Shown: piece after piece, positions 2,945 to 36,691 of the stretch | How the letters are laid out: the number at the start of each line of letters is the position of its first letter | How positions within the stretch are numbered: position 1 is the stretch's first letter | Source of the DNA: a bacterium | GTDB lineage: Bacteria; Elusimicrobiota; Elusimicrobia; Elusimicrobiales; UBA9959 | NCBI GenBank assembly: GCA_021811405.1 | Contig: JAJZOZ010000005.1 | Location: 1 to 43,922, forward strand | Direction of reading: 5' to 3' | Length of the DNA: 43,922 nucleotides | Made by a program: the position numbers and the translations under genes | The notes under the pieces: model-generated | What the model was told of the DNA's origin: nothing | Database searches by the model: none | What the model saw: only the letters and a program-made list of their open reading frames with translations

Positions 2945-5769
<2,825 letters not shown>

Positions 5770-5811
5770 ACTCGTGTGCCGGTGAGCCTGTCGTCTTTCT
5801 CCGGGACAGGG

Positions 5812-7518
5812 TCAGAAAAACCGCCCCGGAAGCCGAGGCTTGCGCAAGCGCCGAGGCTGAGGGCCGGAAGCGCGCGCACGGTGTGCGCGACGCTGTTCTT
5901 TATGGCCCTGCCGCGGAGAAAGGCCGCTGGTATATCTGTCGGCGACGGTAGGCTTCAGGAATCGGCGCGAGGGGGCGGGGTAGTCCACGGTGTAGTGCAG
6001 GCCGCGGCTTTCCTTGCGCGAGCGCGCGGAGCGGATGATGACCTCCGCGAGGCACGCGATGTTCCTGAGCTCCAGCAGGTCGCGCGTAGGGAGGAAATCC
6101 CAGTAATACTTTATGATCTCGCCGGAGATCAGCTCCATGCGCGCCGCGGCCCTGGCCAGGCGCTTGTCGCTGCGGACTATGCCCACGTAGTTCCACATCA
6201 GCGTGCGGATCTCGTCCCAGTTGTGCTTGATGACCACGGCCTCGTCGGAGGGGCGCGCGTTGCCGGTGGTCCAGTGCGCCGGCTTCTCGCCCGCCGGCAG
6301 CGGCCGGTGCTCCGCGGCGGCGGCCGCGGCCGCCCTGTGCGCGAAGACGCAGGCCTCCAGCAGCGAGTTGGAGGCCAGGCGGTTGGCGCCGTGCAGCCCG
6401 GTATGGGAGACCTCGCCGATGGCGAAGAGGCCGGGCATCGCGGTGCGGCCGCGGTCGTCCACCCCCACGCCGCCGCAGAAGAAATGGGCCGCCGGGACCA
6501 CCGGGATGGGGGCCCGGGTGATGTCTATGCCCAGGCTCAGGCACTTGGCGTGGATGGTGGGGAAGCGCTTTTTGAGGAAAGCGGCCTTAAGATGCGTCAT
6601 GTCGAGGAAGACGCAGTCCTCCCCGGTGCGCTTGAGTTCGGAGTCTATCGCCCTGGCCACTATGTCGCGGGGGGCCAGCTCGCGGTGGCGCGAGTACCCG
6701 GCCATGAAGGCCTTGCCGTCGGCCCCGCGCAGTATCCCGCCTTCGCCGCGCAGCGCCTCGGAGATCAGGAAGGACTTGGCCTGCGGGTGGAAGAGGCAGG
6801 TGGGGTGGAACTGGACGAACTCCATGTTGACCAGCGGCAGGCCGGCCCGATAGGCCATGGCCATACCGTCCCCGGTGGTCACGTCGGGGTTGGAGGTGTA
6901 GAGGTACACCTTGCCCGCCCCGCCGGAGGCCAGCACGGTGGTACCGGCGAGGAAGCTGTGCACCCTGCCGGTGGCCTGCTCGAGGGCGTAGACGCCGAGG
7001 CAGCGGTTGGCCCCGGGCCTGGTCTTGGCCGGCCGGTGGCGGAGTATCAGGTCCACCGCGTGGAAATAGGGGAAGAAGGAGACGTTCCTCTCCGAGAGGC
7101 AGGCCTGCAGCAGCGCGCGCTCCATCTCCCGGCCGGTGGCGTCGGCGGCGTGCAGGATGCGGCGCCGGGAGTGCCCGCCCTCCAGGCCCAGCTCGAAGCC
7201 GGTCCCTTTCTTCGTGAACCTGGTCCCGAGGTCCACCAGCTCGCGTATCCGGGCCGGGGCCTCGCTTATGGTCATCCTTACTATTTCCGGGTCGGAAAGG
7301 CCGGCCCCGGTGCGCAGGGTGTCCGCGGCGTGCAGCGCGAAGCTGTCCTTCGGGTCGGTGACCGCGGCTATGCCGCCCTGGGCGAGGGCGCTGTTGGAGG
7401 TTTCCGGGGCCCGCTTGGTGATCACGGCCACCCGGCCGGACGCGGCCAGCTTAAGCGCGGCCGAAAGTCCGGCGGCCCCGCTCCCCACTACGATATAGTC
7501 GAATTTCAGCGCAGACAT
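5812..7518 (-). CDS. nadB: L-aspartate oxidase, with a repeat-derived C-terminal tail
   Basis: A 568-residue flavoenzyme that oxidises L-aspartate to iminoaspartate, the first step of NAD synthesis. The FAD-binding GSGAAG is at residues 12-17. The strings HAADATGREMERAL, EFVQFHPTCL and HGANRLASNSLLEA are typical of NadB. The ATG at 7518 has GGGGA just upstream; an alternative start 39 nt earlier has no Shine-Dalgarno. The last 30 or so residues are Arg/Pro/Ala-rich, unlike NadB, and are encoded by a degenerate copy of the palindromic repeat found elsewhere in the window. They are probably an acquired read-through tail. nadA and nadC are not nearby. It is divergent from the flippase-like gene across a 66-nt AT-rich gap. 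Confidence 0.96.
   Translation of the reverse strand: MSALKFDYIVVGSGAAGLSAALKLAASGRVAVITKRAPETSNSALAQGGIAAVTDPKDSFALHAADTLRTGAGLSDPEIVRMTISEAPARIRELVDLGTRFTKKGTGFELGLEGGHSRRRILHAADATGREMERALLQACLSERNVSFFPYFHAVDLILRHRPAKTRPGANRCLGVYALEQATGRVHSFLAGTTVLASGGAGKVYLYTSNPDVTTGDGMAMAYRAGLPLVNMEFVQFHPTCLFHPQAKSFLISEALRGEGGILRGADGKAFMAGYSRHRELAPRDIVARAIDSELKRTGEDCVFLDMTHLKAAFLKKRFPTIHAKCLSLGIDITRAPIPVVPAAHFFCGGVGVDDRGRTAMPGLFAIGEVSHTGLHGANRLASNSLLEACVFAHRAAAAAAAEHRPLPAGEKPAHWTTGNARPSDEAVVIKHNWDEIRTLMWNYVGIVRSDKRLARAAARMELISGEIIKYYWDFLPTRDLLELRNIACLAEVIIRSARSRKESRGLHYTVDYPAPSRRFLKPTVADRYTSGLSPRQGHKEQRRAHRARASGPQPRRLRKPRLPGRFF
5831..5891 (-). repeat. Degenerate copy of the palindromic repeat family, inside the 3' end of nadB
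   Basis: Two blocks match the full repeats in the same order. CGAGGCTTGCGCAAGCG at 5834-5850 corresponds to the complement of 36612-36628 with one extra A. GCACGGTGTGCGCGAC at 5876-5891 corresponds to the complement of the block near 36577-36592. A GGTGAGCCT at about 5781 may be a remnant of a stem arm. The piece lies in the reading frame of nadB and sets the sequence of its last residues. Confidence 0.6.
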
Positions 7519-7584
7519 GTTCCCCGCCAGAACGGCGGCCTTTTCTTCGGCCGCCATAAAAAGATAAACTAATTTTATCAAATT

Positions 7585-11323: not shown

Positions 11324-11510
11324 TACAGGCCAGCAAGTTCGCAAGTCCTGTCGAGGTTCTTGCCTCGGCAGGCACGCGGTCGCGAACACCGTGCCCGCCC
11401 CTCGTCAAACTGCGGTGTCGCTTCGCTCCACTCAGTCGTCGCGCTTACGCGAGCTCCTCCCTCCGCGACGGCCTTCGAGGCAGAACCCTCGCCACCCGCT
11501 CCTGGTATTT
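11324..11510 (+). repeat. Palindromic repeat family, copy 1
   Basis: An imperfect long inverted repeat. The arm CGAGGTTCTTGCCTCG (11352-11367) pairs with CGAGGCAGAACCCTCG (11476-11491), 15 pairs with one bulge on each side. An outer TACAGG / CCTGGTA pair closes it. It shares CCCTCGCCACCCGCTCC (11486-11502) exactly with 36656-36672. It shares GTGTCGCTTCGCTCCAC (11415-11431) exactly, in inverse orientation, with copy 2. It starts about two bases after the TPR gene stop. No convincing coding sequence lies in it. Confidence 0.85.
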
Positions 11511-11565
11511 TGCCCGCCGCATGGAAGCGATCGCTAAGTGTAAGTAGTTATCAGGATCGGAGGGG
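11511..11565. other. Spacer between two repeat copies
   Basis: The 448-nt stretch between the TPR gene and lptB (11323-11770) holds no credible gene. It is made of repeat copies 1 and 2 in opposite orientation, separated by this 55-nt spacer, plus about 37 nt before the lptB stop. I see no promoter or terminator in the spacer. Confidence 0.6.
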
Positions 11566-11733
11566 AGACCGCGGGGCCAGGTTAGCAAAACCTTCGTGAG
11601 GGCGAGGCTTGCGTAGCGCCGCGTGGAGCGAAGCGACACTTTCTTGCCCGAATGATGAGCGAGGGCACGGTGTGTCCCGGATGGAGCGACAGCGACAGGT
11701 CCCCGCGCGTTTTGCGTTCTGGCCCCGCGGTAG
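11566..11733 (-). repeat. Palindromic repeat family, copy 2 (inverse orientation)
   Basis: Perfect 13-bp outer arms, ACCGCGGGGCCAG (11568-11580) and CTGGCCCCGCGGT (11719-11731), enclose a second 7-bp pair, GCAAAAC (11585-11591) and GTTTTGC (11709-11715). GTGGAGCGAAGCGACAC (11623-11639) is the exact complement of 11415-11431 in copy 1. GGGCGAGGCTTGCGTAGCG (11600-11618) matches the complement of 36612-36630 at 18 of 19 positions. It lies about 40 nt beyond the lptB stop codon. Confidence 0.85.
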
Positions 11734-36514: not shown

Positions 36515-36691
36515 TCCGGCAGGCCTGCAGGTTCGCGGGGTCTGTCGAGGGTGAGCCTTCGTCGGGCCGGTGTCTCGCACACCGTGCTCGCACCTTGACA
36601 CTCGGGCTCGTCGCTGCGCAAGCCTCGCCCTGCGCGACATCCCTCCAAAGGCTCACCCTCGCCACCCGCTCCGGTCATTCAGCCTGCCGGA
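36515..36691 (+). repeat. Palindromic repeat family, copy 3
   Basis: The best-formed copy. Outer arms TCCGGCAGGC (36515-36524) and GCCTGCCGGA (36682-36691) pair perfectly. Inner arms CGAGGGTGAGCCTT (36546-36559) and AAGGCTCACCCTCG (36648-36661) pair perfectly over 14 bp. The interior shares CCCTCGCCACCCGCTCC exactly with copy 1. CGCTGCGCAAGCCTCGCCC (36612-36630) matches copy 2 at 18 of 19 positions, inverted. CACACCGTGC is common to all copies with small changes. It fills most of the queA-tgt gap and contains no credible ORF. Confidence 0.9.

Follow-up and report, generated by a model that had tools for sequence, protein, structure and literature searches.

The window, by which we mean the whole 43,922-nt stretch of DNA analysed here, comes from an Elusimicrobiota MAG and carries long palindromic repeats beside its genes. 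The question raised by these repeats is whether they are mobile elements, structured RNAs, terminator or 3'-end units, or something else. An initial annotation, made from the letters alone, had described three copies (copies 1 to 3 below), and all three were confirmed where it had placed them. Among the blocks it had reported as shared, CCCTCGCCACCCGCTCC was seen by eye in copies 1 and 3, and copy 2 carries two others in inverted form, GTGTCGCTTCGCTCCAC of copy 1 (17/17 match) and GCAAGCCTCGCCC of copy 3. The perfect arms of 10 and 14 bp in copy 3 were recovered, the latter inside a 24-nt pair at 83%; of the 13- and 7-bp arms given for copy 2, the perfect arm of 13 bp was confirmed. The window holds four copies rather than three, the fourth having been overlooked, as had the orientation of copy 2, which is opposite to that of copies 1 and 3. 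The features are as follows, with scores from the covariance model R1 described below.

36515-36691, plus strand: entire copy 3 including its outer arms, in the queA-tgt gap
36546-36667, plus strand: model core of copy 3 (R1 102.1 bits, E 4.3e-24)
36515-36524, plus strand: outermost left arm of copy 3, TCCGGCAGGC, pairing with 36682-36691 (10/10 complementary)
36682-36691, plus strand: outermost right arm of copy 3, pairing with 36515-36524
36545-36558, plus strand: second arm of copy 3, pairing with 36647-36660 (ends set by eye)
36569-36594, plus strand: hairpin P2 of copy 3, from the structure counted on own-genome copies
36604-36630, plus strand: hairpin P3 of copy 3, with a tandem TC/TC mismatch, from the same counted structure
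11324-11510, plus strand: copy 1, core 11352-11496 (46.3 bits, E 6.3e-9)
11415-11431, plus strand: nested hairpin module of copy 1, whose complement includes d(GCGAAGC)
11566-11733, minus strand: copy 2, core 11564-11730 (40.3 bits, E 2.8e-7)
11568-11580 and 11719-11731: arms of copy 2
11623-11639, plus strand: nested module GTGGAGCGAAGCGACAC of copy 2
5794-5917, minus strand: copy 4 (R1 92.1 bits, E 2.2e-21)

Copy 3 is flanked by the minus-strand genes queA and tgt, which were identified by Pfam. Copies 1 and 2 form a convergent pair in which copy 1 is on the left. The P2 hairpin of copy 3 has the triloop ACC, a bulged T and a tandem TC/TC mismatch. When RNA folding was compared with 200 dinucleotide shuffles, copy 3 gave z -4.3 (0/200 as good), copy 2 gave z -2.5 (2/200) and copy 1 gave z -1.9 (6/200); the predicted folding energy of copy 1 would not convince by itself.

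Both blastn and covariance-model searches found many further copies in the genome of the window. With copies 1, 2 and 3 as queries, blastn returned 43, 29 and 42 matches at E <= 0.001, the queries themselves included, and these merged into 69 clusters, of which 65 were inspected; 45 copies passed a spacing filter. R1 was built on 40 own-genome copies without inserts, copies with inserted modules being omitted on purpose, and gave 70 matches at E <= 0.1 in the own genome (2.83 Mb, 234 contigs), four of them in the window. Copies had no ORF of their own, as had been noted. R1 matches were present in all 25 genus genomes searched, at 9 to at least 87 per genome, and in none of 16 genomes from another family of the same order. 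Across the phylum, 39 of 294 genomes matched at E <= 1e-6 under strict filters, with at most 12 places scored per genome: 23 belonged to the own genus, 12 to other members of the same family, 3 to a different family within the class and 1 lay elsewhere; 12 further genomes of the same family had no match at this threshold and these filters. A scan of a genome collection with an exact pattern, which catches about a fifth of own copies (13/65) and so indicates hosts rather than copy numbers, found 44 stretches. Forty were titled Elusimicrobia or Elusimicrobiales, and the remaining four comprised two titled only bacterium, one Pseudomonas and one Mycolicibacterium. As far as searched, the repeats are therefore intergenic elements of 120-200 nt restricted to Elusimicrobiota, nearly all in one family.

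Searches for a known relative were negative. Rfam at gathering thresholds found only a tRNA across the window, and Rfam 15 had no match for copies 1-3 even at E up to 1. Phages, plasmids and viral contigs gave no match to one copy or one exact pattern used as query, and literature searches on Elusimicrobia and repeats turned up no title on this folding repeat family. The claim of a new-looking palindromic family is thus supported by the 70 model matches, the genus-wide occurrence and the lack of an Rfam match. Chance GC-rich similarity has a practically negligible probability of explaining the matches: the copies are indeed about 70% GC, but this explanation was refuted by E-values down to 1e-98 and 6.8e-31, by the absence of matches from the 16 same-order genomes and by the hosts of the 44 pattern stretches. 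Contigs ended inside copies in G005 (C8, C20, C30, C36, C37) and in the own genome (C68, C176). The repeats therefore probably break short-read assemblies, and the copy counts are lower bounds.

Each copy is predicted to form a three-way junction of outer arms (P1), an inner stem (P1b) and two hairpins (P2 and P3). In the R1 orientation, the order is the variable arm P1, P1b, P2, P3 and then the second halves of P1b and P1. The P2 consensus, NNNNAC-ACC-GTNNNN, includes a bulged T and has another stem beneath it. In the 40 own copies, 83.8% of cells paired, compared with 68.2% when shuffled, and the covariation score was 0.380 versus 0.144, with 0/500 shuffles as high. An alignment of 119 copies (G005, G015 and the window), fitted to the R1 model, gave similar values: 84.9% of 3,627 cells paired versus 66.1% shuffled, and covariation was 0.403 versus 0.145 (0/500 shuffles as high). 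None of the slid registers tested on these 119 copies approached the pairing or covariation of the drawn structure.

The two sides of a stem were tightly linked in sequence. P1b, the outer P2 stem and P3 showed moderate mutual linkage. Linkage was absent between the inner P2 stem and all others (z -1.2 to 1.9) and nearly absent between the outer arm and the core hairpins. Outer arms vary between loci yet remain complementary, and cores within one genome resemble one another. An optional module reads GTG-GA-GCGAAGC-GA-CAC on the strand opposite R1; in its available text, PMC4686876 describes d(GCGAAGC) as an extraordinarily stable DNA mini-hairpin. Another nested module, CACTGGCCTATGGCCGTGCCGCATCAGG...CATCAAGCGGCCACCGTG, replaces or extends P2 in own copies C120:10705, C75:20406, C151:12127, C125:4921 and C12:8581.

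Wobble pairs and A-C mismatches were counted in the stems. The 3,627 cells of the drawn structure held 77 G-T and 101 A-C, and the own copies held 31 and 26, respectively. RNase P from 29 genus members (RNAalifold) had 450 G-U and 10 A-C in 3,569 cells, and 11 tRNAs had 11 wobble pairs and no A-C in 257 cells. As wobble in the repeats was no commoner than A-C, against 450 to 10 in RNase P, pairing seems to be kept at the DNA level, and the earlier suggestion of a structured RNA is disfavoured. By RNAalifold, the R1 strand had wobble to A-C counts of 56:42 and 33:32; the opposite (GA) strand had 87:53 (45-copy alignment) and 72:34 (A1), a modest excess far below that of RNase P. Mismatches were lopsided, with 321 TC and 14 GA on the R1 strand among the 3,627 cells, and the tandem TC/TC steps of the R1 strand are tandem GA on the other. 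The GA strand folded lower in 116/119 copies with RNA parameters and in 112/119 with DNA parameters. We infer that any role of the fold is played by the GA strand as single-stranded DNA. The alternative is selection for pairing on both strands, which would likewise purge wobble.

Placement relative to genes was assessed for 173 of the 178 copies given (70 own plus 108 of 120 others) with a purpose-written small gene finder, and 172 of the 173 fell outside gene calls. Contexts were 111 tandem-gene gaps, 41 convergent, 9 divergent and 11 at edges, while all gene neighbours in the fetched tiles were 959 tandem, 112 convergent and 115 divergent. The R1 strand was co-directional with tandem genes 75 to 36 (p 0.0003), and in convergent gaps it was sense to the nearer gene in 32 cases against 9 (p 0.0004). 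These p-values carry the reservation that sites common to sister species do not give independent copies. Such biases would not be required of a purely DNA element. Copies less than 300 bp apart were convergent in 23 of 23 neighbours, at spacings of 8-112 bp (some of these pairs are common to sister species and thus not independent), and neighbours 300 bp to 10 kb apart (n=21) had mixed orientations. At queA-tgt, the site of copy 3, 13 of 28 loci had a match, some with two copies. A terminator or 3'-end unit, another of the earlier suggestions, is disfavoured by copies lying between genes that look cotranscribed, such as queA-tgt and cydA-cydB, and by the occurrence of both orientations; copies nonetheless favour gene 3' ends.

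Turnover was followed in 78 stretches of two sister species, G005 and G015, in which 31 G005 sites could be matched to G015. Twenty sites had one copy in each species, three had a pair in both, four had unequal numbers and four had no G015 match. Orientation was kept at 12 of the 20 single-copy sites and inverted at 8. In 23 of 26 comparisons the core was nearer to an own-genome paralogue (up to 1.00) than to its same-site counterpart, identities being taken from an alignment fitted to the model, where values are depressed by inserted modules. For the arms, the counterpart was nearer than every paralogue in 7 of the 26, and in 5 the arms matched the counterpart while the core matched a paralogue. 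At C34:51699 and C53:8007, the outer arms were conserved around an inverted, different core; at C20:16115 and C22:84529, the arms differed between the two species as well. Occupancy of own sites in relatives (22/30 and 24/30) is biased towards occupied sites, as tiles were centred on copies, and 25 of the 70 own sites had no syntenic tile and 4 lay at contig edges.

The cydA-cydB gap holds a copy in 10 of 24 species, seven in one orientation and three in the other. Its arms, GGCATGACATGGGACCGG and complement, are recognisably the same across the genus, with paired changes (by eye). Among the species without a match, the genes nearly abut in seven, a short gap is left in four, and three have another insert or masked sequence; in the short gap of G010, the beginning of the left arm is still present (by eye). 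On the strength of this occupancy, the common arms and the states of the gap, including the arm remnant in G010, cydA-cydB is an old site with repeated loss.

Copy 4 presents a different history. It lies at the end of nadB, upstream of uvrA (both identified by NCBIfam), and replaces the region of the nadB stop codon. This junction had a match in the window only, one of 25 species loci; the site was empty in the 23 other species with full flank, and the upstream part in G004 is only 75 nt. Other matches in nadB-uvrA loci lie past the 3' end of uvrA. The comparison of these loci shows a gain in the lineage of the window, in 1 of 24 species. The predicted NadB of the window (5812-7557, minus strand) reads through the element for 37 residues after VADRYTS, near which NadB of the relatives stops (by eye). 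Opposite the copies found only in G000, at C50, C7:7182, C27:6739 and C209:11436, the relatives have compact gaps; as these relatives are sisters, loss on their side is possible. Direct repeats around 171 copies were no commoner than in shuffled partners, the lone exception being a 14-nt exact repeat around C7:7182. The proposal of a non-autonomous mobile element therefore holds in part: one gain and the lack of an ORF agree with it, but the analysis found neither a mover nor a conspicuous target duplication.

On balance, we consider it probable that the repeats are REP/REPIN-like intergenic DNA that template switching and gene conversion rework while it is single-stranded and folded. The fold would act as single-stranded DNA, the strand with tandem G-A being the better folder. 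Polymerase template switching between the inverted arms would keep the arms complementary without wobble intermediates, and the same switching could flip the core. In the portions available, PMC8604942 reports that template switching homogenises arms and inverts the spacer, and PMC8794818 that it yields multibase compensatory changes. Gene conversion or copying between dispersed copies may homogenise the cores, and new copies would be made in trans by some enzyme, as REPINs are by RAYTs; a search for a mover, which covered Y1_Tnp, found none. The wobble excess on the GA strand, the gene-strand bias, the scarcity of target duplications and the negative outcome of the mover search count against this reading.

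A cis-acting structured RNA at gene 3' ends, serving in stability, processing or attenuation as BIMEs can, is unlikely. It would require both strands to be transcribed often enough for wobble pairs to be purged. Placement speaks for it, in the near-complete avoidance of gene calls (172/173), the share of convergent gaps (41/161 copies compared with 112/1,186 of all gene neighbours) and the sense biases of 75:36 (tandem) and 32:9 (convergent), as do the modest GU excess over AC on the GA strand by RNAalifold and long-lasting sites such as cydA-cydB. Against it, orientation flips at conserved positions and loss is frequent, with 14 of 24 cydA-cydB gaps lacking a model match; moreover, GU did not exceed AC in the drawn structure, against a 45-fold excess in RNase P, and Rfam had no match even at E 1. 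Rather improbable, too, is a DNA-level arrangement in which a core of about 90 nt is exchanged and flipped among inherited, locus-specific palindromic sockets by a dedicated single-stranded DNA activity; if true, each genome would hold one homogenised pool of cores able to act on many gene boundaries. We regard as distinctly unlikely a dedicated site-specific cassette system in which cores are cut out, inverted and traded among fixed arm sockets by a recombinase that works on folded single strands. Conserved arms with inverted or different cores, the strand asymmetry of the fold and the non-random geometry of pairs would suit it, but general template switching accounts for the flips and arm repair without a recombinase, and empty sites had lost, or never had, the arms too.

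Mobilisation as a REP/REPIN family by resident Y1 (RAYT-type) transposases is very doubtful. Y1_Tnp genes occur in 27 of 32 genus genomes, the copies are short, gene-less, folding repeats in gaps, and the convergence of all 23 near pairs recalls the inverted REPIN doublets described in the accessible part of PMC3116915. Nevertheless, no R1 match lay within 1.5 kb of the 12 tested of about 86 Y1 loci, and copy number was uncorrelated with Y1 genes over 25 genomes (rho -0.20, p 0.33). G003, G016 and G023, MAGs that are 93, 91 and 90% complete, had no Y1 match yet carried 61, 45 and 32 copies. REP and REPIN sequences have a GTAG or GTGG tetranucleotide 5' to the hairpin foot, according to the available text of PMC6006769; with the foot placed roughly, by the model boundary, GT[AG]G was found in 20 and 22 of 110 copies against a background of 19.8%. 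This candidate is thus weakened by Y1 neighbourhood, correlation and foot alike.

Covariation is usually read as proof of structured RNA. The present family combines very strong covariation with hardly any wobble, orientation flips and core swaps between sites, which suggests that DNA events can keep pairing. Covariation in MAGs should accordingly not be taken as RNA function. With its hundreds of natural loci, the family offers a means of telling selection for folded DNA apart from template switching and from gene conversion, in a phylum that lacks good genetics.

Several known systems share parts of this behaviour. The integron attC site is a folded single-stranded DNA recombination site, conserved more in structure than in sequence and active on one strand, on which the integrase acts as a folded single strand; the present repeats differ in their fold and form no gene-cassette arrays. 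Rickettsia palindromic elements are palindromic repeats of about 100-150 nt that may run into coding ends, as copy 4 runs into that of nadB, whereas here 172 of 173 copies lie outside genes. DDE-type MITEs have constant terminal inverted repeats and a target duplication; in the present family, arms differ between loci and direct repeats were not above shuffles in 171 copies. Quasipalindromes, as presented in the accessible text of PMC8604942 and PMC8794818, share arm homogenisation, spacer inversion and multibase compensatory changes, but each is a lone locus whose spacer is a few bases long, while here a conserved core of about 90 nt is common to dozens of loci.

Other folding repeats were observed in the same genomes. 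One group (L219, L230, L228, L221 and L238/L254, in G015/G005) consists of intergenic inverted repeats, roughly 60-130 nt long, whose ends are of the GGGG or AGGGACAGCGCC type; they are present in one sister species and absent from the other, where the empty sites are nearly clean. In appearance they resemble the TIRYT repeats described in PMC6006769; these inverted-repeat insertions with GGGG ends are a separate family from the one studied here. Blocks of the form CGACTTTGGGGAAGG...GAACCGTTGCGCGGTTCCC mark another large palindromic repeat, which occurs in L303, L304, L316 (cydA-cydB), L189 and L188 (queA-tgt) and in L286 near 3330-3750, and once adjoins the left arm of the main folding family (G024). 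A third type of similar style, with GGCCTATCA(C/T)TA and GCACTGTGTGC blocks, was seen in L186 (the queA-tgt gap of G042) and in L267 near 2090-2350 (G005).

REP, BIME and REPIN sequences differ from the present family in being hairpins of 20-40 nt, compared with a three-way junction of 120-200 nt here. The family also has locus-specific arms and mostly single copies, with no GT[AG]G foot and no Y1 gene near the 12 loci, and because this foot and a RAYT neighbourhood were not found we do not file it under REPINs. The likeness lies in the many short, gene-less, folding intergenic copies, their persistence across the genus and the convergent doublets (23/23), and by this analogy REPINs, as portrayed in the available parts of PMC3116915 and PMC8049555, are the closest in habit.
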